Assembly: GCF_017745095.1 (NCBI RefSeq)
Contig: NZ_JAGHZZ010000019.1
Location: forward strand, 1 to 64,000
DNA length: 64,000 bases
Source: Sporocytophaga sp.
Lineage (GTDB): Bacteria > Bacteroidota > Bacteroidia > Cytophagales > Cytophagaceae
Direction: 5' to 3'
This document shows positions 47,077 to 56,870 of this stretch, piece by piece. Position 1 is the first letter of the stretch, and each line of letters starts with the position of its first letter. The notes under the pieces are model-generated. The model saw only the letters and a program-made list of their open reading frames with translations, did no database searches and was not told where the DNA came from. Both the position numbers and the translations under genes were made by a program.

Positions 47077-47321
47077 AAGTATCTTAATTCCGGATGTTTA
47101 TTTCAATTACGAATGGGATATCTTTCCGTTAAAAAAAGGATAAAATTTAGGTAATTGAATTTTAAATTTATATTAAATTATTGTAAAACAGTTTATTGTG
47201 ATTGTTTATTTTTCAGCCGGATTACAAGCAAACTCCTGGCCAGACTATCAAATTTTCCCGCTTGCACTTTTAAGCGCGTTGTTATGTTTTTATAATAAGA
47301 ATTTAAAAAAAGGAGGGGAGA

Positions 47322-47489
47322 ATGAAAAGTGCAGTAATTGGTAGAATTTATACACTGATATTTTTTGTGCTATTTCTTTCAGGATGTCAGGTGGTAGAAG
47401 GTATTTTCAAGGCGGGTATGTGGACTGCTTTCATTATTATAGCCTTGGTAGTAGTGCTCATTATATTCGTATTGCGAAAGATATTTTGA
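47322..47489 (+). CDS. Short membrane lipoprotein (55 residues)
   Basis: The ATG at 47322 is preceded by a strong AGGAGGGG ribosome site. The 55-residue product starts with a lipoprotein signal (LFLSGCQVVEG, cysteine 22). A short link (GIFKAGMW) and one transmembrane helix ending RKIF follow. This cysteine, GIFKAG, helix layout is common in Bacteroidota as very short proteins, some misannotated as phosphatidate cytidylyltransferase. It is too short for routine gene finders. It is isolated between the DUF2339 and receptor genes. Function unknown. Confidence 0.8.
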   Translation: MKSAVIGRIYTLIFFVLFLSGCQVVEGIFKAGMWTAFIIIALVVVLIIFVLRKIF

Positions 47490-47589
47490 GGACGGATTGA
47501 TATTATTTTCTCTGTTGTTCTCTGATTTTAATAAATTACAAAGAGAAATACATGGTGAAGTGCGTAATTGTGCAAGCGATTAAGTACTC

Positions 47590-49446
47590 TTAATCACTAG
47601 TATGACTTATGCTTTCTATTGTTCTATCTACTACAAGAGAGTTCCATCCATTGAATTCTTTTTTATCAAGTACTTTAATTCTGTCCTTAATTTTTTTCTT
47701 GAAATTTGAGCAAGTAGATTTTCTTAATGACAACATTTCGGATAATTCATCTGATGTGATGTCCTGTTTGTTTGAAACAAGATACATGATGTAAAATGCC
47801 TTTACTATCGGAAATTTAAGTTTATGGAAGATTGTATTTGCTGTTACAGATTCATTGTATCCGCATTTGCTGCATCGTCTGTCAAATTGTTCCTTGCCTT
47901 TACCGCAGCTTGTTGAATTGCATTTTTTGCATTGAAATTTGGTTTGGCCTTTAAGTTCTTCCAGATATCTGAAACAGGTAAGCTCATCAGGATAAACTTT
48001 AACAAATTCTTCAAAATTTACCTGGTTTTTCATGATTCTGGTCATGGCTATATCAGACATATCCTTCTTCAGTGCTCTGTTTGCAAGATCAAGCTGCAGG
48101 TTCATCGTAGTGATTTCTTCAGTTTGGTTGATTAGCCTTTCATATGCCTGTTTAAGCTGTTCTGTTCTTTGTGCTACTTTTTCCTCTAGTTCCTTGTTAA
48201 TCTTGTCCTTTAATAATTCCTTCTCTTTCATTTCTTCAATAGACTTATTTTGTGCGGCTTGCCTCATTTTGATTTCAGCCCCCATTCTGTCTGTCAGCGA
48301 CATAGAAAGTAAGATTATATCGAGAATGATACCAATATTTAGACTGTACACAGTGAAGATGGTTGATTTGATAAAGCCATAGTTTTCTAATGCAGTTATT
48401 GTAAATGCTGCAAACAAGCTTGTATATGCAATCCATAAGAAAAAGGCAGTTTTGTTTCCTCTTAAGTAACTTCTGAGAGATATTTTATATGCTAGTAAAA
48501 ACGGGATAGTATCAATGTAAATAGCATATAAGATATTTCTGTTCAAGAATAAACCATATAATAATATCAATCCTCTGATGACTATTACAAAGTTTATGAC
48601 TTTGTTAAAAAAAGGTTGAGTTTCTTTTAGATTTAAAAATCCTTTTATGAATAACAAGGCGAAAGTAATGATTCCATATAAAGCAAGACTAAAGGCATAT
48701 AGATTCCACTCCGGGTTTTCAGGCCAGAGATATTGGAATGCGAAGCCACTTTGACACATAGAATAGAGACTGAATGACAGTACATAAAAAACATAATATA
48801 GATAAATGCTCATTTTGATTGATATGTACATCAAAAGATTGTACAAGGCCATCATAATTAAAATGCCATAAAAAATTCCTAACACATAGTACTCTGCCAG
48901 GGCATAGGATATGAATTTCTTATAAGATCTGATTTGGGGACTTAAATTGTTTTCGTTTTCCGATTTTACCCGAATGTAAAAAGTCAATGTTTGGTTCTGG
49001 GGAATCCGTAATTCAAATTCAGGATTTTTATGCAAAAACATACGTTTGTTAAATGAAATCAGATTACCTGCCTGAGTCAATTGGTAATGCCCATTTTCAT
49101 CTGGGGCATAAAATGAAATATAATTTATGTTATGATCATATAGCTCAATCAGCCAGTTTCTCTCATTTTTTGTCAGGTTTTTAACAGAAAATCTAAGCCA
49201 GTAGGAGGAAGCTTTGTTAATGTTTACAACATCAGAAGTTTGATATCTGAAGCTGTCAGCATAAATAGGGCTTGTAATTGTTTTAATATCAAGTTTGTTG
49301 GTTTTATCTTCAAATACTCCTAGGTACTCTTTTCTGACTCCTTTTTCTTCAATTTTATTAGTCAATAAAAATACATGCTCTGCATTTACAGAGGTATTTA
49401 AAAAGTGTATTAAAAAAATGCAAAAAATATAATAATATGTTTTCAT
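47590..49446 (-). CDS. 7TMR-DISM receptor fused to an IS1595-type transposase zinc ribbon/HTH
   Basis: The protein has 618 residues. Signal peptide 1-22; a 7TMR-DISMED2-like extracytoplasmic sandwich (about 35-165); seven transmembrane helices (about 183-385); a cytoplasmic coiled coil (about 395-465). The C-terminus is a zinc ribbon with C506/C509 and C525/C528, then the transposase-like segment TANTIFHKLKFPIVKAFYIM and a helix-turn-helix (about 560-592). That tail matches the N-terminal region of IS1595-family transposases (Zn_Tnp_IS1595), but the DDE catalytic domain is absent. It may be a membrane-tethered DNA-binding regulator. No histidine kinase or cyclase output domain is present. Confidence 0.75.
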   Translation of the reverse strand: MKTYYYIFCIFLIHFLNTSVNAEHVFLLTNKIEEKGVRKEYLGVFEDKTNKLDIKTITSPIYADSFRYQTSDVVNINKASSYWLRFSVKNLTKNERNWLIELYDHNINYISFYAPDENGHYQLTQAGNLISFNKRMFLHKNPEFELRIPQNQTLTFYIRVKSENENNLSPQIRSYKKFISYALAEYYVLGIFYGILIMMALYNLLMYISIKMSIYLYYVFYVLSFSLYSMCQSGFAFQYLWPENPEWNLYAFSLALYGIITFALLFIKGFLNLKETQPFFNKVINFVIVIRGLILLYGLFLNRNILYAIYIDTIPFLLAYKISLRSYLRGNKTAFFLWIAYTSLFAAFTITALENYGFIKSTIFTVYSLNIGIILDIILLSMSLTDRMGAEIKMRQAAQNKSIEEMKEKELLKDKINKELEEKVAQRTEQLKQAYERLINQTEEITTMNLQLDLANRALKKDMSDIAMTRIMKNQVNFEEFVKVYPDELTCFRYLEELKGQTKFQCKKCNSTSCGKGKEQFDRRCSKCGYNESVTANTIFHKLKFPIVKAFYIMYLVSNKQDITSDELSEMLSLRKSTCSNFKKKIKDRIKVLDKKEFNGWNSLVVDRTIESISHTSD

Positions 49447-49869
49447 ATTATTTTATGGTTATCAATAAGATGTAAAGGCTAAATTAATAAGATTTTTTTA
49501 AATGAGAATTGATAGTCTGAAAAAAAATATGGATAAATATACGCCTATGTTAGACGAATAAAAAGTTTGTCTTTTAAATGTTTTTAAAATTAATAATCGT
49601 TGAAATTTGAATTTTTGGGCATGTTTTTATTGTCTTTTAAGCGAAAAATATAAGTAATTTACATGCTTTCAAAAGGTTATAAAACCAATTTTTCCTCTCC
49701 TAAAATTTGACTTCTTCTCATCTTCTCGATAGTATGGTTTATAATCAAGCCCGAAAGTGAATAACTGGATTATTAAGTTCACTATTCTGGGAATATTCAA
49801 ATTTGATAAGTAAAAGAGTCATTAAATTTTATCTGAAGATTTTTGCCTAAACATTAAGTAATAAGACTT
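49447..49869. other. Intergenic region between divergent genes
   Basis: This 423-nt AT-rich stretch separates the minus-strand 7TM receptor and the plus-strand Crp/Fnr gene. I see no reading frame that could be a gene and no clear hairpin. It must hold promoters for both genes, but no confident -33/-7 pair could be read. Confidence 0.5.
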
Positions 49870-50523
49870 ATGGAAAGAATTTTAAGTACACCTGTAATTG
49901 AATTAGAGGATCAGTTTAATTTCTTTGAACGGGACTTAAGAGTTGAACTGGCTGCTGCTAAAATTGAAAAATTTGAAAAGGGAAATCGAATTCACAGACA
50001 GAATGCCTTCCTGGTTTCTGTACCTATTCTTTTAGAAGGGAGTTTAAGGATTTTTCGTCAAACTGAAGACAGAGAAATTTTGCTTTATTATGTAAATAAA
50101 GGAGAAACCTGTATGATGTCTTTATTGTCGTGTTATGGTCAAACACCAATGAATGCGGCAATGGAAGCTTCTGAGAGATCGGAATTAATTCTGGTTCCGA
50201 GAATTAAAGTGTATGAATGGCAAAGAAAATATTCTTCCTGGAATGATTTTGTAATTAAGACTTTTGCACAAAGACAGGAACAATTGCTGGATTCATTCGA
50301 TTCTCTGGCGTTTTCAAGTATTGACAAAAGAATTAAGGATTATCTTATCCGTCTTTCTTCTAAAACCAAACAACAAATCGTTTCAATTACACACCAGGAA
50401 TTGGCCAATGAACTTGGCACAACCAGGGTGGTAATTTCCAGAATTTTAAAATGCCTTGAAATTGAAGGCGCGATCGAATTGCTTCGGGGGGCAATAAAAG
50501 TTAAGGACTTAAAACTTAACTAA
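49870..50523 (+). CDS. Crp/Fnr-family transcription regulator
   Basis: This 217-residue regulator has an N-terminal cNMP-binding beta-roll (about residues 20-130) and a C-terminal HTH_Crp_2 domain. The recognition helix is in LANELGTTRVVISRILK (about 177-193). There are no cysteine clusters of an Fnr-type iron-sulfur sensor near the N-terminus. It sits upstream of the iron-related imelysin genes in the same direction, but a terminator and separate promoter lie between. It could control them or the divergent 7TM receptor (inference). Confidence 0.85.
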   Translation: MERILSTPVIELEDQFNFFERDLRVELAAAKIEKFEKGNRIHRQNAFLVSVPILLEGSLRIFRQTEDREILLYYVNKGETCMMSLLSCYGQTPMNAAMEASERSELILVPRIKVYEWQRKYSSWNDFVIKTFAQRQEQLLDSFDSLAFSSIDKRIKDYLIRLSSKTKQQIVSITHQELANELGTTRVVISRILKCLEIEGAIELLRGAIKVKDLKLN

Positions 50524-50696: not shown

Positions 50697-51881
50697 ATGC
50701 TTTCTTTCTATACGAAACGAATTTTCCCCATTGTCTTTAGTGCAATCCTTTTGTCTTCGACAACATCCTGTAAAAAAGATAAAGATCCCAATCCTTCTTC
50801 TTCAGGTTCTAAAGAGCAGGAGGTAGTAAACAATTATGCTGAGATTGTTTATGCTTCCTATTTAGATTCATATAATAAAGGTAAAGATTTGCAAAACAAA
50901 ATTAACGCTTTTTTAGCAGAGCCTTCTGCACAGAAATTAAATGAAGCAAAACAAGCCTGGCTGGATGCCCGTGTGCCATATCTTCAGACTGAAGCTTATC
51001 GTTTTTATGACGGCCCTATTGATGATCCTGAAACTGGGGTGGAAGGTTTGTTAAACGCATGGCCAATGGACGAGTCGTATATTGACTATGTTGAAGGTAA
51101 TGAAAATGCTGGAATCATTAATGACTTAGGTGTGAGTCTTACCAAGGAAAATCTAACTGCTTTAAATGAAGGAGGAGGGGCGGCAGAAACTTCTATCAGT
51201 GTGGGATATCATGCAGTTGAATTTTTATTATGGGGCCAGGACTTCAGCAATGATGGCCCCGGTAACAGACCATATACCGATTTTATAGATGGTGGAACTG
51301 CTAAGAATCAGGAAAGAAGAGTTCAGTATCTTCGCACAATTACAGATATACTTGTGGAGGATCTTGATTATTTAGTTAAATCATGGGCACCAGGTTCTAA
51401 CAATTATCGTAAATCTTTTGAAGCTAATGTAGATGAATCTCTAAGAAACATTCTGTTCGGTTTTGCAAGCTTAAGTGGTGGTGAGCTAGCTGGTGAAAGA
51501 ATGCAGGTTTCCCTTGAGTCAGGTCAGCAGGAAGATGAGCACTCATGCTTCAGCGATAATACACATAATGATATCATCTATGATGCTCTTGGTCTTGAGA
51601 ACGTTTATTATGGAAGATATACCAAACTGGATGGAACTATCATTGATAAAGCAGGCATCGACGAACTTATAGCAGCTAAAGATGCTAATTTGAGCAGTAA
51701 GATGAAAACTCAACTTGCAACTACCAAAACAAGTGTCAATGCAATTCATCATCCTTTTGATCAGGAAATTACTGATCCGGAAGGTAAAAAGCGTATTCAG
51801 GCTGCAATAGAATCGCTTTATAAACAAGCCGATCTATTAACAGAAATAGCTGCTAAACTTGAAATTACATTTAATAAGTAG
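50697..51881 (+). CDS. Imelysin-family lipoprotein (IrpA-like)
   Basis: This 394-residue lipoprotein has a signal ending LLSSTTSCKKDK (cysteine near residue 25). The imelysin (peptidase M75) fold carries the diagnostic GxHxxE motif as GYHAVE (G170, H172, E175) within SVGYHAVEFLLWGQDF. Imelysin-like proteins such as IrpA and EfeO are iron-regulated and linked to iron uptake; protease activity is disputed. It is the first gene of a three-gene run with a di-heme protein and a second imelysin, a recurring iron-related arrangement. Confidence 0.88.
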   Translation: MLSFYTKRIFPIVFSAILLSSTTSCKKDKDPNPSSSGSKEQEVVNNYAEIVYASYLDSYNKGKDLQNKINAFLAEPSAQKLNEAKQAWLDARVPYLQTEAYRFYDGPIDDPETGVEGLLNAWPMDESYIDYVEGNENAGIINDLGVSLTKENLTALNEGGGAAETSISVGYHAVEFLLWGQDFSNDGPGNRPYTDFIDGGTAKNQERRVQYLRTITDILVEDLDYLVKSWAPGSNNYRKSFEANVDESLRNILFGFASLSGGELAGERMQVSLESGQQEDEHSCFSDNTHNDIIYDALGLENVYYGRYTKLDGTIIDKAGIDELIAAKDANLSSKMKTQLATTKTSVNAIHHPFDQEITDPEGKKRIQAAIESLYKQADLLTEIAAKLEITFNK

Positions 51882-51882
51882 A

Positions 51883-53325
51883 ATGAGTTTATTAAATATA
51901 ATAAAAAGCTGTACCAGGGGATTATTATTCCTTGGTACGGCTTTTTTATTTACCTTCCTTTTTATTATCACTTCTTGTAAAAAGGATAAAGAACCTTCCA
52001 CAGAAAATGCTGCAGAGGCTGGTGAAGAGCTGGCCGGTGGCTTGGCAACAGTTTTTGATCAGACTGAAAATGCTTTTGGCCATTCTATTCCGGGAGTAAG
52101 TATAGAAGACAATGCCAGATTTGTAGTTGGCAATTCTTTCTTTCGTGATAACTGGGTAATCGCCCCTTCTTCAACAGCGGGTCGCGACGGAGTGGGGCCT
52201 TTGCTCAACACATTATCATGTTCAGGATGCCATTTCAAGGATGGAAGAGGCCAACCTCCTCTCGATGGGAACGATCCCGTTTCTATGCTTATGAGACTTA
52301 GTATCGCTGGTACCGATATTCACGGTGGGCCACTAGGGCATCCTGATTATGGAACTCAGCTAAGCCCTAATGCCATTTCTGGTGTACTTCCTGAAGGGAC
52401 ATTTAAAATTACTTACCTCCCTCTTGATGGCAGTTTTGATGATGGAGAGGTTTATCAATTGAGAAAACCTGTATATGAATTTATAAAGTTGAATTATGGA
52501 GACCTTGGTGCAAATGTACTAACTTCTCCAAGAGTAGCTCAGCAATTGCCGGGCCTAGGCTTGCTTGAAGCTGTTGATGAAGCAGTCATTCTTTCTTACG
52601 CCGATGAGAATGATTCAGATAAGGATGGTATTTCAGGTAGACCAAACTATGTTTGGGATGAAGCTCAGAATCAAAATGTCCTTGGTCGATTTGGCTGGAA
52701 AGCGAATCAGCCTAATATCAGACAACAGGTTGCAGGAGCTTTCTCTGGTGATATGGGAATTACATCATCTCTGTTCCCTGAAGAAAACCTTAGCCCTATC
52801 CAGTTTCAGAATTATGCCAATTTGCCTAATGGCGGGACTCCAGAAATTCAAGATGACCTCTTTGATAAAGTAGTTTATTATACGACCACTTTATCTGTAC
52901 CAGGAAGACGTAATTGGACAGCAACGGAGGTATTGAGAGGTAAGCAATTATTTACCGAAGCCAAATGTAGTAAATGTCACATTCCTAAAATGAAAACAGG
53001 AATTTATCGTCCTGTTAAAGAATTGTCTAATCAGGAAATTCGTCCATATACAGACCTGTTGTTACATGATATGGGAGTGGGCCTGGCGGATGGTCGTCCT
53101 GATTTTCTTGCTAACGGTAACGAATGGAGGACACCACCACTATGGGGGATAGGTCTTGTTAAAAATGTAAATAAACATACATATTTTCTTCACGACGGCC
53201 GTGCTAGAAACTTTCAGGAGGCCATACTCTGGCATGGAGGCGAGGCAGAGCAATCTCAGAAAGCATTCAAAGCAATGTCAAAATCAGATCGGGCCTCACT
53301 TGTGAAATTTCTGGAATCTCTATAA
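51883..53325 (+). CDS. Di-heme c-type oxidoreductase lipoprotein (thiol oxidoreductase/DUF1111-like)
   Basis: The protein has about 480 residues with a lipoprotein signal (IITSCKKDKEP, cysteine 32). Two CxxCH heme sites are visible: CSGCH (113-117) and CSKCH (362-366). The latter lies in a late cytochrome c domain with HDMGVGL-type sixth-ligand region. This is the di-heme family often found with imelysins in iron-regulated loci; it resembles MauG/CCP peroxidases but substrate is unknown. The ATG at 51883 is used; an in-frame start at 51859 overlaps the imelysin gene. A terminator-like hairpin lies inside its first codons (separate entry). Confidence 0.85.
   Translation: MSLLNIIKSCTRGLLFLGTAFLFTFLFIITSCKKDKEPSTENAAEAGEELAGGLATVFDQTENAFGHSIPGVSIEDNARFVVGNSFFRDNWVIAPSSTAGRDGVGPLLNTLSCSGCHFKDGRGQPPLDGNDPVSMLMRLSIAGTDIHGGPLGHPDYGTQLSPNAISGVLPEGTFKITYLPLDGSFDDGEVYQLRKPVYEFIKLNYGDLGANVLTSPRVAQQLPGLGLLEAVDEAVILSYADENDSDKDGISGRPNYVWDEAQNQNVLGRFGWKANQPNIRQQVAGAFSGDMGITSSLFPEENLSPIQFQNYANLPNGGTPEIQDDLFDKVVYYTTTLSVPGRRNWTATEVLRGKQLFTEAKCSKCHIPKMKTGIYRPVKELSNQEIRPYTDLLLHDMGVGLADGRPDFLANGNEWRTPPLWGIGLVKNVNKHTYFLHDGRARNFQEAILWHGGEAEQSQKAFKAMSKSDRASLVKFLESL
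51904..51947 (+). promoter_or_regulatory. Terminator-like hairpin inside the start of the di-heme gene
   Basis: AAAAGCTGTACCAGGG (51904-51919) pairs with CCTTGGTACGGCTTTT (51930-51945) in a 16-bp stem with two wobble pairs and a 10-nt loop, ending in a run of six T. It lies in codons 8-21 of the di-heme gene, 22 nt past the imelysin stop. It has the form of an intrinsic terminator and may act as an attenuator opened by translation of the downstream gene (inference). Confidence 0.6.
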
Positions 53326-53335
53326 TCATTATCGA

Positions 53336-54457
53336 ATGAAACACACCATATTTATTTTGCCCTTATTATTTTTGTTTTTTATCGGATGTAAAAAGGATAC
53401 AGAACAGAAACCATCAGATGCCTTCAATTCTTTTGACAGAAAAGGAATGCTGGAAAATATAGGTAGAAATATTATTATACCTTCTTATAAGGAATTGAAT
53501 AATTCTTCACACAACATGACGACTGCATGTGAAGGATTTGTAAGCAACCCGACAGAGGAAAATCTAATAGCATTACAAAACGCCTGGAAACAGACAGCAG
53601 GTGCATGGAAGAGATGTGAGCTGTATAAAATAGGTCCGGGTGATGATCTGTCTGTTGCTCTTTATAGCAGTATTGATTTTTCGCCTGTTAATACTTCTTT
53701 AATTGAAGATGCAGTTAATACAACTTCGGTAATTGATACAAACTATGTTAAAAATAAGGGAGCCTCTGTAAAAGGCTTTCCAGCTATTGAATACCTTCTT
53801 TTTAACTATGCTAATGGCAATGCTTATATTCTCAATAAGTTTGCAGGAACAGAAATTTCAATACAAAACAGGAAAAATTACCTTCTTGCATTGTGTAGGA
53901 CTTTGGAATCCAAGTCTATTGAAATACTTGGTCTTTGGGAATCTGGCTATATCAATATATTTATAGCTTCGGATGGGAAGGATATCAATAGCTCAATAGG
54001 AATGTTGGTCAATCAGCTGATCTACCTTACAGAGGTTGTTAAAAATAAAAAGCTTGGAAAGCCATTGAACAATATGGGAGTTCCACAAATTAACCAACTC
54101 GAGGCCCGCGAGAGCGGAATGTCCCTGAGTCATATTAAAGAGAATGTTATTTCTCTTGAAAATGCATTTCTTGGTAAAAGTTCTAAGGGAGATTTGGCTG
54201 GGTTTGATGATCTTCTGAATTATATTGGTGCCAGACATGAGGATGTACTATTAAGCAATAGGATAAAACAACAGTTTGATAGTATCTATATTGCCATAAA
54301 TAGGGTCGAACCATCTTTGCAAACAAGTCTTGAAACTTCTCAATCAAACGTTAAGGACTTATATTTGAAAGTACTGGAACTCGTTGGTTTATTTAAAGTG
54401 GACATGACAACTGATCTCGATGTCTTGGTTACTATCTCCGATAATGATGGGGATTGA
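53336..54457 (+). CDS. Imelysin-family lipoprotein, second copy
   Basis: The 373-residue lipoprotein has a signal ending LFFIGCKKDTEQ (cysteine near residue 18) and an imelysin-like all-helical fold. The motif that is GYHAVE in the first copy is here GFPAIE, so the histidine is replaced by proline while glutamate is kept. This matches the divergent imelysin type usually found as the second gene in such loci. It starts 10 nt after the di-heme gene. It probably acts with the two upstream products at the envelope in iron handling. Confidence 0.8.
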   Translation: MKHTIFILPLLFLFFIGCKKDTEQKPSDAFNSFDRKGMLENIGRNIIIPSYKELNNSSHNMTTACEGFVSNPTEENLIALQNAWKQTAGAWKRCELYKIGPGDDLSVALYSSIDFSPVNTSLIEDAVNTTSVIDTNYVKNKGASVKGFPAIEYLLFNYANGNAYILNKFAGTEISIQNRKNYLLALCRTLESKSIEILGLWESGYINIFIASDGKDINSSIGMLVNQLIYLTEVVKNKKLGKPLNNMGVPQINQLEARESGMSLSHIKENVISLENAFLGKSSKGDLAGFDDLLNYIGARHEDVLLSNRIKQQFDSIYIAINRVEPSLQTSLETSQSNVKDLYLKVLELVGLFKVDMTTDLDVLVTISDNDGD

Positions 54458-54677: not shown

Positions 54678-56870
54678 ATGATGAATAAACCCATATTGTT
54701 TTTTTTATTGACTGTATTGCTGGCACCGCTGACAGCATCTTCTCAGTCTGCTACTCCTTGGCTTCACGTTGAGGGAAACCTAATTAAAGATCCTGCAGGA
54801 AACACTGTTATTCTTAGGGGCGTTGACTTTCAGGATATCAAAGAACAAGCCACTGATAGAACTGTTGGTTTGAATGGATTGATTGACGTAGTAACAAACC
54901 TTGATGATACTTTATCTGAGTCTCCAGGATGGTATACAAGGGTGCTAAGATTTACGGTAGAACCACCCATCTCCAACCTTGAACAATATTATCAGCAAAC
55001 TTTAAAACCTGCTGTAGATTATGCTACATCTAAAGGGCTCTATGTAATTATCGACTGGCATTATATTGCCGATGTAAACGGGAATATAGCGACTACCAAT
55101 GCTTTCTGGAGCTACATGGCGCCTAGGTTCAATAATTACTCCAACGTATTATATGAGGTATATAATGAACCTATTAATAATAACCTTACCTGGGGACAAT
55201 TCAAACCATATATGCAGGCTTGGGTAGATCTCATAAGAAAGTATGCCCCGCACAACCTTATTCTTGCTGGAAGTCCAACGTGGGATCAGAAAATGGGAGA
55301 TGCCGCTACTAATCCTTTAACCGGAGGAAACATTGTATATGTCGCGCATATCTACCCTGGTCATTGGACTGCAACAGGCGCTGGTTCTGTGAAAGCACAG
55401 GTAGAAAAGGTTGTAAAAGTTCATCCTGTATTTTTATCAGAGTGGGGCTTTAGCCAGACTGTTTCTGCTACAAGTACTTTGTTGAAAGGTACTATTACAA
55501 GCTATGGAGATCCAATAGTTAAATGGGCTGAAAGCCTTGGCCTAAGTTGGTCTGCTTGGGTAGCTGACAACGACTGGGAACCAGCCATGTTTACAAGAGA
55601 CTGGAAATTAAAGGTTGGTCCTGGTGAAATGGGGGGCTTTGCTAAAGATAAACTGTATGAATTTAAAGATGATCACCAGCCTACTGATGTACCATGTTTT
55701 GCTCCGTATTTAGGCCTTCCTCAGACTTTGTGCGGTAAGAACTCTGTTACAATCGGTCTTCAATCAACTGCTGAAGATGTTTCTTTCAAGTGGTTTAAAG
55801 ATGGAGAAGAATTAACTGACCAGATGGGAGCAACAATTGAGGCAACCGAAACGGGTAAGTATAGGGTAGAAGCGACTTTAGGCACATGTACTATGGCAGA
55901 CGAAGTGGATGTTGTAAAAACTATGTTTCCTATTAGCCTAGGAAAAGGTGCTGTTCTAAAACAAGATCCTCTTGTTATAAAGGTTGATAATGCAGAAGAA
56001 AAGTTTACTTACCAATGGTATCATAACAATCAACTGATCGAAGGGGCAGATTCAAGTTCATTAGCTGTCTTTGATACATGTGGCGCATTTTATTCTGTTC
56101 TTGTTACTTCTGAAGATTGCGGATCTGTTTCTGATACATTTAAAATTTTATGTGCAAGAGGATATTTTAAAGGTAAACCTTTCGATATCCCTGGAATTAT
56201 TCAGGCAGAGGATTATGATTTTCAAAATATAGCGAATACAACCTATTTTGACTCGGATCCTTCCAATCAGGGAGGTTCATATAGAAATGACGAAGTAGAT
56301 ATTGAGGCGACCAAAGACGTTAACGGTGCGTTTAACGTAGGCTGGACAGCAACAGGGGAATGGCTGGAATATTCTATATCAGTAAAAGAAAATGGGGAAT
56401 ATCCTGTATATCTTAGAGTAGCTGGAAATCCGACACCAGCTGTTGGTGCAAATGTTCATATAAAACTGAATGGTAAAAAAGCATCTTCTACAGTTACACT
56501 TCCAATTACTGGAGATTGGCAAAAATGGGAAACAGTATCTTTAGGTATTGTTACTTTTAACACCACTGATACTTTATTAAGGTTCTTTATTGAATCCCCT
56601 GGCTTTAATCTGAACTATATAGAAGTTGGTCCTAAGGTAGAAACCAGTATTTTCGGCAGACGCAATGCATCTTCATTAATAGTTTATCCTAATCCGGTAA
56701 ATGATCTCGTCTTCTTCTCAGAGGAAATACCATATGACTGGACAATCACTACGCTTATGGGAAATGTATTATTGAGCGGAAATGGTATTAATGCGGATGT
56801 GAGCAGCTTAAACAGAGGTACCTATCTGTTGAATGTCAATGGCAACGTTGCGAAAATAATGAAGTATTAA
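54678..56870 (+). CDS. Secreted GH5 cellulase with CBM6 and T9SS sorting domain
   Basis: The protein has about 730 residues from the ATG at 54678 (an upstream in-frame TTG at 54645 is unlikely). Signal peptide ends ASSQS. A GH5 domain (about 25-335) has the acid/base glutamate in YNEP (E164) and nucleophile in LSEWGF (E255). Ig-like modules follow (about 345-495), then a CBM6 (about 505-652; IIQAEDYDFQ). The last 65 residues (IVYPNPVNDLVFF ... GTYLLN) form the type A T9SS sorting domain. It should be exported across the outer membrane and hydrolyse beta-1,4-glucan. CBM6 may bind xylan or cellulose. Confidence 0.92.
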   Translation: MMNKPILFFLLTVLLAPLTASSQSATPWLHVEGNLIKDPAGNTVILRGVDFQDIKEQATDRTVGLNGLIDVVTNLDDTLSESPGWYTRVLRFTVEPPISNLEQYYQQTLKPAVDYATSKGLYVIIDWHYIADVNGNIATTNAFWSYMAPRFNNYSNVLYEVYNEPINNNLTWGQFKPYMQAWVDLIRKYAPHNLILAGSPTWDQKMGDAATNPLTGGNIVYVAHIYPGHWTATGAGSVKAQVEKVVKVHPVFLSEWGFSQTVSATSTLLKGTITSYGDPIVKWAESLGLSWSAWVADNDWEPAMFTRDWKLKVGPGEMGGFAKDKLYEFKDDHQPTDVPCFAPYLGLPQTLCGKNSVTIGLQSTAEDVSFKWFKDGEELTDQMGATIEATETGKYRVEATLGTCTMADEVDVVKTMFPISLGKGAVLKQDPLVIKVDNAEEKFTYQWYHNNQLIEGADSSSLAVFDTCGAFYSVLVTSEDCGSVSDTFKILCARGYFKGKPFDIPGIIQAEDYDFQNIANTTYFDSDPSNQGGSYRNDEVDIEATKDVNGAFNVGWTATGEWLEYSISVKENGEYPVYLRVAGNPTPAVGANVHIKLNGKKASSTVTLPITGDWQKWETVSLGIVTFNTTDTLLRFFIESPGFNLNYIEVGPKVETSIFGRRNASSLIVYPNPVNDLVFFSEEIPYDWTITTLMGNVLLSGNGINADVSSLNRGTYLLNVNGNVAKIMKY

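Follow-up and report, generated by a model that had tools for sequence, protein, structure and literature searches.

The window analyzed here is a 64,000-nucleotide stretch of DNA from Sporocytophaga sp. (contig NZ_JAGHZZ010000019.1), and one of its genes raises the question of what a seven-helix membrane receptor does with an output domain that resembles the DNA-binding end of a transposase. The usual intracellular modules of 7TMR-DISM receptors are a kinase, a cyclase, GGDEF (diguanylate cyclase), or PP2C. Pfam detects no kinase, cyclase, GGDEF, or PP2C module in the window receptor, and a putatively transposase-derived zinc ribbon and HTH take their place.

Architecture of the receptor and its transposase-type head

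The 7TMR-DISMED2 and 7TM domains of the window protein are followed by a signaling-helix coiled coil and then by the zinc ribbon and HTH. The features, all on the minus strand, are as follows.

47590..49446, minus strand: receptor gene, 618 amino acids, an intact ORF
49381..49446, minus strand: signal-peptide-like N terminus, approximately residues 1–22, recognized by eye; helix 2–17 in the model
48931..49329, minus strand: 7TMR-DISMED2 sensor domain, residues 40–172 (Pfam, 6e-30; RetS periplasmic fold)
48286..48894, minus strand: 7TMR-DISM seven-helix membrane domain, residues 185–387 (Pfam, 2e-44; model)
48022..48276, minus strand: coiled coil of the signaling-helix type, residues 391–475 (model; aligned receptors)
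47827..47940, minus strand: IS1595-type zinc ribbon, residues 503–540, with Cys506, Cys509, Cys525, and Cys528 (profiles, alignment, model)
47671..47808, minus strand: HTH, residues 547–592, recognition helix approximately 576–592 (IS1595 transposase profile; models)

Both 7TMR-DISM domains score far above their Pfam cut-offs. The full-length AlphaFold model (49 receptors) has a mean pLDDT of 83 and consists of a beta-sandwich (residues 25–174), the membrane helices, the coiled coil, and then the head. The coiled coil continues the last membrane helix to approximately residue 472, and the pLDDT is below 50 over its residues 444–463. The sensor matches the RetS periplasmic domain (PDB 3jyb) both by sequence profile (E 2e-4) and by fold (E 1e-4); RetS-like 7TMR-DISM receptors share this sensor domain and belong to the same 7TM family. 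The ERT signature described for signaling helices (PMC1592074) is present in the coiled coil of the 49 aligned receptors, with Glu426 in 34 (Gln in the window protein), Arg427 in 48, and Thr428 in all 49. Asn417 is also found in 49 of 49. No kinase or receiver domain passes Pfam in the window receptor, and its NCBIfam kinase matches are weak, lie over the coiled coil, and are far below the cut-off.

The tail of the window protein was compared with IS1595 profiles together with the tails of its family. The window tail is a sub-threshold member: it scores E 0.02–0.14 against the Pfam model Zn_ribbon_IS1595, with no match at E 0.01, and its matches to the NCBIfam IS1595 transposase model are weak (E 0.0019 and 0.0043, far below the model cut-off). 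At E 0.01, Zn_ribbon_IS1595 matches 30 of 32 family tails (best 7e-11) and the NCBIfam model matches 31 of 32 (best 1e-9). The four cysteines are invariant across the 49 aligned receptors, and the AlphaFold model of the tail alone is a confident zinc ribbon and HTH (pLDDT 85). Sequence comparison of the tail with solved structures gave only weak HTH or zinc-ribbon matches (best E 0.04), and Foldseek returned no solved structure matching the head at E 0.001. The first-pass annotation had described a 7TMR-DISM receptor fused through a coiled coil to an IS1595-type zinc ribbon and HTH without a DDE domain, and had proposed the profile comparison; Pfam, AlphaFold, and the family profiles confirm this architecture.

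IS1595 transposases have the zinc ribbon and HTH in common with the window receptor, whereas the receptor lacks the DDE domain, has no related terminal repeat nearby, and carries the head fused to a membrane sensor. Pfam finds no DDE catalytic domain in the window receptor. The last 60 residues were also checked for a VDE-type catalytic motif in 116 head-bearing ORFs of at least 450 amino acids, and it was missing from every one; the 116 include some genes more than once through overlapping loci. The window was searched for a single terminal repeat, that of a related insertion sequence in the sister genome G003, and matched it only at chance level (one match with 3 mismatches, 13 kb away). A DDE remnant or terminal repeats beside the gene had been named as signs of a recent insertion at the end of an ordinary receptor gene. 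Neither a DDE remnant nor the related repeat was found, all 80 kept loci carry the tail, and the reading as a recent insertion was rejected.

The receptor family and its gene order

Tail-bearing receptors are a widespread family. The best 80 of 295 foreign relatives were kept, and 80 of 80 carry the tail, although the set is biased toward tail-bearing receptors because one of the two search patterns sits in the tail. In one of them (L126) the contig end cuts the receptor within the HTH. Genera with such receptors include Pedobacter, Mucilaginibacter, Chitinophaga, Fulvivirga, and Roseivirga. Using frame length as the criterion, the tail lies inside a frame of at least 590 amino acids in 19 of 19 genomes of the taxonomic family, own genome included, and in 5 of 20 other genomes of the order. 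At least 11 genomes besides the source genome have a tail-bearing receptor in a phylum sample of 392, a lower bound with at most 10 candidates scored per genome. The closest foreign copy of the window receptor in a scan of genome contigs is that of a Sporocytophaga MAG, with 90% identity.

In the Sporocytophaga genome itself, five receptors have the tail, one further tail is decayed, and one head of 151 amino acids stands alone. The decayed solo copy (L010:1381-2100; G000:C11:622016) has a very similar counterpart in an intact receptor, L171, of the sister genome G003. The stand-alone protein (L012:1426-1881, minus strand; G000:C6) is a distant zinc-ribbon/HTH head with matches in frames of similar length in genomes G001 and G002.

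The origin of the head was examined with a tree of 78 heads, which is based on 128 columns and leaves many forks unresolved. The 49 receptor heads and one solo head group together (aLRT 91, not starred), and this group sits inside a 99* group with VDE-bearing IS1595 transposases. We infer from this placement that the head originated as the DNA-binding end of a transposase from one IS1595 lineage, and one fusion event would be the simplest reading of the tree. The solo head among the receptor heads (L140:1197-1607, minus strand; genome G196) has 137 amino acids and is possibly a freed receptor head.

Gene order was parsed in 79 of the 80 loci (the script missed L080 despite its tail), and 78 have a next gene. 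This gene, on the same strand, encodes a SusC-type TonB receptor in 49 of 78 loci. On the other side of the receptor, SusC occurs at position −1 in 0 of 74 loci and at −2 in 2 of 70. SusD is found at +2 in 46 of 77 loci. Glycoside hydrolase clusters occupy +3 in 35 of 75 loci, +2 in 15 of 77, and +1 in 9 of 78, and they are also found at −1 in 13 of 74. Pfam identified SusC, SusD, LamG, GH30, GH16, GH3, GH5, GH18, GH9, GH2, and the PF10091 family among representative neighbors, a mix of hydrolases that would point to beta-glucans in many loci. The synteny comparison had been suggested at the outset; what it brought out, unseen by the first-pass annotation, is that the likely targets elsewhere are polysaccharide-utilization loci (PULs). 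By eye, an apparent histidine kinase and response regulator occupy −1/−2 in 11 Pedobacter loci, including L083 and L084.

Operator-like repeats in the relatives and in the window

The gap set consisted of 56 gaps of 150–650 bp between a receptor and the following SusC (49) or GH30 (7) gene. These gaps total 17.8 kb and contain 49 exact copies of AAGCGTATCA, versus 4 in the remaining 723 kb of the same loci; when one mismatch is allowed, the counts are 65 versus 41. One of the 49 exact copies, in L110, is inverted and likely part of a terminator hairpin, and it lies outside the helix-type count, which took one strand. The motif is often present as two direct copies: core-site pairs were found in 33 gaps, and 20 of the pairs are 91 or 92 bp apart.

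The motif agrees with the recognition helix of the receptor. Receptors with the helix (I/V/L)RQ(S/G)TCW, which form one clade, have AAGCGTATCA in 35 of 38 gaps, and receptors with other helix types have it in 0 of 18 on the gene's strand (Fisher 6e-12, which overstates independence, the sequences being related). The 18 other-type gaps contain TGTTATTnAAGCG-type pairs and TGTTATTnAAGCGnAATA-like sites, and in 16 of 18 the two sites that score highest by a leave-one-out matrix are spaced 64, 65, or 66 bp apart. This B-type matrix was seeded with a word composed from enriched words, and each gap was scored without its own site. The pair test was positive in 18 of 18 other-type gaps and in none of the 780 control segments; for the AAGCGTATCA type (A-type), a looser 8-mer test was positive in 16 of the 780. 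TATTnAAGCG is common to both operator consensus sequences. Many of the loci are close relatives, so the counts for motif, spacing, and helix do not represent independent events. A second Pedobacter xixiisoli receptor, unused in motif finding, provides an independent check: it has AAGCGTATCA in the gap before a further operon with SusC, SusD, and GH2. These data suggest that the direct repeats in the gaps are candidate operators bound by the receptor heads.

The next gene is neither SusC nor GH30 for 22 receptors, and an operator-like site lies within 600 bp downstream of 4 of these and of none of the other 18. A scan of the same 22 loci found a pair upstream of the receptor in L050, a Sporocytophaga ortholog, and exact AAGCGTATCA copies elsewhere in L068, L075, L089, L094, L099, and L118. 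The single 10-mer is common in whole genomes, with 16–20 copies per genome versus 2–10 in the reversed control for six genomes of the AAGCGTATCA type, and 6 versus 6 and 23 versus 10 in two genomes of the other type. It was dropped as a genome-wide regulon marker because it is too common. The tight two-site pattern occurs once, inside the gap, in the 5.2-Mb genome of L084, the one genome tried. The idea that the operator is the terminal repeat of the related insertion sequence was also rejected, as TAGGATTACCCATTTA bears no convincing likeness to AAGCGTATCA. GGATTA-type words are present in just 11 of 56 gaps.

The window receptor adjoins neither a PUL nor SusC/SusD genes. The following features of the divergent region and beyond were identified.

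49568..49585, plus strand: operator-like repeat 1, TGTCTTTTAAATGTTTTT (TGTCTTTTAAATG), identical in 3 orthologs
49631..49648, plus strand: operator-like repeat 2, TGTCTTTTAAGCGAAAAA (TGTCTTTTAAGCG), best single matrix match in the window, identical in 3 orthologs
49870..50523, plus strand: Crp/Fnr-family regulator (Pfam; position), the predicted target
50697..54457, plus strand: imelysin, di-heme oxidoreductase, and imelysin genes 3' of Crp/Fnr (Pfam), possible indirect targets

The two repeats are direct, lie between the receptor and the divergent Crp/Fnr gene, and face Crp/Fnr. Both 18-mers are identical in the Sporocytophaga orthologs L174, L175, and L176 (L050 is the same record as L176), and the divergent region is well conserved among orthologs. 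The matrix derived from the 18 foreign gaps, all of other genera, has its best single window match at 49631, which ranks second in 140 kb with a score of 14.8, barely above the best reversed-sequence score of 14.1. None of the other tiles (151 across the window) reaches this single-site score. The pair 49568/49631 scores 19.6, and the next best pair in the 64 kb with one site of at least 11 scores 1.1. Its spacing of 63 bp is one below the foreign 64–66 and was admitted after it had been seen. The divergent region and the Crp/Fnr gene had been put forward as possible targets in the first-pass annotation. For the window copy, the paired repeat pointing at Crp/Fnr favors this proposal, and the window receptor probably acts on the divergent Crp/Fnr gene.

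The downstream gap, 47077-47589, was considered as a target region and rejected; it is poorly conserved apart from a small ORF. The conserved part of this gap contains a small lipoprotein-like ORF (47322-47489, plus strand; MKSAVIGRIYTLIFF..., by eye). A few kb from the receptor, 54678-56870 (plus strand) encodes a GH5 enzyme with a CBM6/35-type module and a weak secretion-tail match. A single-site scan recognized no adjoining operator at the four other Sporocytophaga receptors. One of the other receptors of this genome (C56) is divergent from a GH3 gene, and a receptor paralog in L158:8808-16569 is divergent from genes that resemble an RND efflux operon by eye.

Proposed mechanism, rival explanations, and known regulators

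The protein is very likely a membrane-tethered one-component transcription regulator, mostly of PULs, that works in a SusR-like manner through a domesticated transposase head. The periplasmic DISMED2 beta-sandwich would bind a ligand, probably a glycan breakdown product, and the seven-helix domain would relay the change to the cytoplasmic signaling-helix coiled coil. The coiled coil would determine how the C-terminal zinc-ribbon/HTH heads are arranged in a dimer, and the heads would bind the direct repeats that lie upstream of the target's promoter and turn on transcription, activation being predicted rather than repression. For the majority of the Bacteroidota loci examined, this target would be the SusC/SusD–glycoside hydrolase operon directly downstream; for this Sporocytophaga copy it is probably the divergent Crp/Fnr gene. 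A single fusion would have joined the IS1595 head to a 7TMR-DISM receptor, and the head would have persisted without the catalytic domain. A one-component, membrane-tethered regulator had been suggested from the window sequence alone. That reading is strengthened by the conservation of the receptors, by their position before SusC/SusD operons, and by repeats that match the recognition-helix type, DNA binding itself being predicted from sequence.

The repeats could instead be bound by another regulator, either the adjoining kinase/response regulator pair or an unlinked factor, with the head acting through protein contacts. Zinc ribbons can bind proteins too, and the apparent pair lies directly upstream of the receptor in the 11 loci noted above. 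However, loci of Mucilaginibacter, Chitinophaga, Siphonobacter, and a Cyclobacteriaceae MAG have the same repeats but no such pair in the flank examined, the repeats go with the recognition-helix type of the receptor, and a related repeat pair lies beside the Sporocytophaga receptor. We regard binding by another factor as improbable. Still harder to credit is the view that an IS1595 element inserted into an ordinary receptor gene and left the head behind as a functionless remnant. Homology of the head to transposases in the sister genome and one decayed copy of such a tail in the Sporocytophaga genome speak for this view, but no block of the receptor is more conserved than the zinc ribbon (mean 0.68 versus 0.48 for the sensor), which contradicts it. 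Also against it are the retention of the tail in the 80 kept loci and the failure to find a VDE motif behind the head or a related terminal repeat.

For the window copy, the target might not be Crp/Fnr, and the receptor might instead act on its own gene or on the downstream DUF2339 gene. With the repeats situated between two divergent genes, a response from either promoter is conceivable, and the DUF2339 gene is the next one on the receptor's own strand. We consider this assignment unlikely, because the repeats point at the following gene in other clades and at Crp/Fnr here, and because conservation among orthologs is good in the divergent region but, save for the small ORF, poor in the downstream gap. 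The Crp/Fnr gene remains the preferred target of the window receptor.

Three types of PUL regulator have been proposed, namely SusR, HTCS, and ECF sigma/anti-sigma systems (PMC3878776). SusR of Bacteroides is likewise a membrane protein with a periplasmic sensor and a cytoplasmic C-terminal DNA-binding domain, and it activates sus operons (PMC3878776). Compared by description only, it appears to be the closest in working principle. The SusR DNA-binding domain is reported to have no significant similarity to known ones, and the available portion of that source mentions neither a 7TMR-DISM domain nor a transposase head for SusR (PMC3878776). HTCS are also membrane glycan sensors of PULs with direct-repeat operators, and direct-repeat motifs with long spacers are reported in the same portion (PMC3878776). 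HTCS differ in having a kinase and a receiver in the chain, neither of which passes Pfam in the window receptor. For a DNA-binding output on a DISM receptor, ChiS-type architectures provide a precedent, since a figure legend lists 7TMR-DISM among the domains that co-occur with the ChiS-family DNA-binding domain (PMC8092284). The ChiS-family proteins are proteobacterial and have a different DNA-binding domain, for which the available portion of the source mentions no transposase origin (PMC8092284). The 7TMR-DISM/GGDEF protein of PMC5342196 has, as far as the available portion describes it, no bearing on this case. Among the matches listed in a search of titles and abstract openings of the open-licence literature, none describes an IS1595-type head on a 7TMR-DISM receptor, or a 7TMR-DISM receptor in a PUL.

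The receptors probably constitute an undescribed fourth class of PUL regulator that arose when a 7TM receptor captured an IS1595 head in a single ancient event. Its members would be membrane-anchored glycan sensors with a two-site operator of fixed spacing, the susC promoter would be drawn to the inner membrane, and operator specificity would have diverged with the recognition helix. If this is true, the Bacteroidetes have a fourth type of PUL regulator beside SusR, HTCS, and ECF sigma/anti-sigma (the three types proposed in PMC3878776), and a bacterial transposase head has been domesticated as the output of a membrane receptor. The predicted operators are testable in culturable Pedobacter, Mucilaginibacter, and Roseivirga, and related transposases that keep VDE allow a comparison of how site recognition changed.

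The closest non-receptor heads are 41–50% identical to the five Sporocytophaga tails and come mostly from a group of genome G198 that appears to have lost DDE. The VDE-bearing L172 head is 41–42% identical to the Sporocytophaga tails where listed. The sister genome G003 contains two near-identical 1-kb IS1595-family elements (L161/L162) with the terminal repeat TAGGATTACCCATTTA and an intact-looking transposase. The G198 proteins (L134, L164-L169, L173) form one clade of eight diverse, scattered IS1595-like proteins of approximately 305–330 amino acids. Five of their loci were tested for terminal repeats, and none were clear. They appear to lack the DDE residues (TNGW instead of TDGW, for example, and no VDE) and are perhaps a separate domesticated family.
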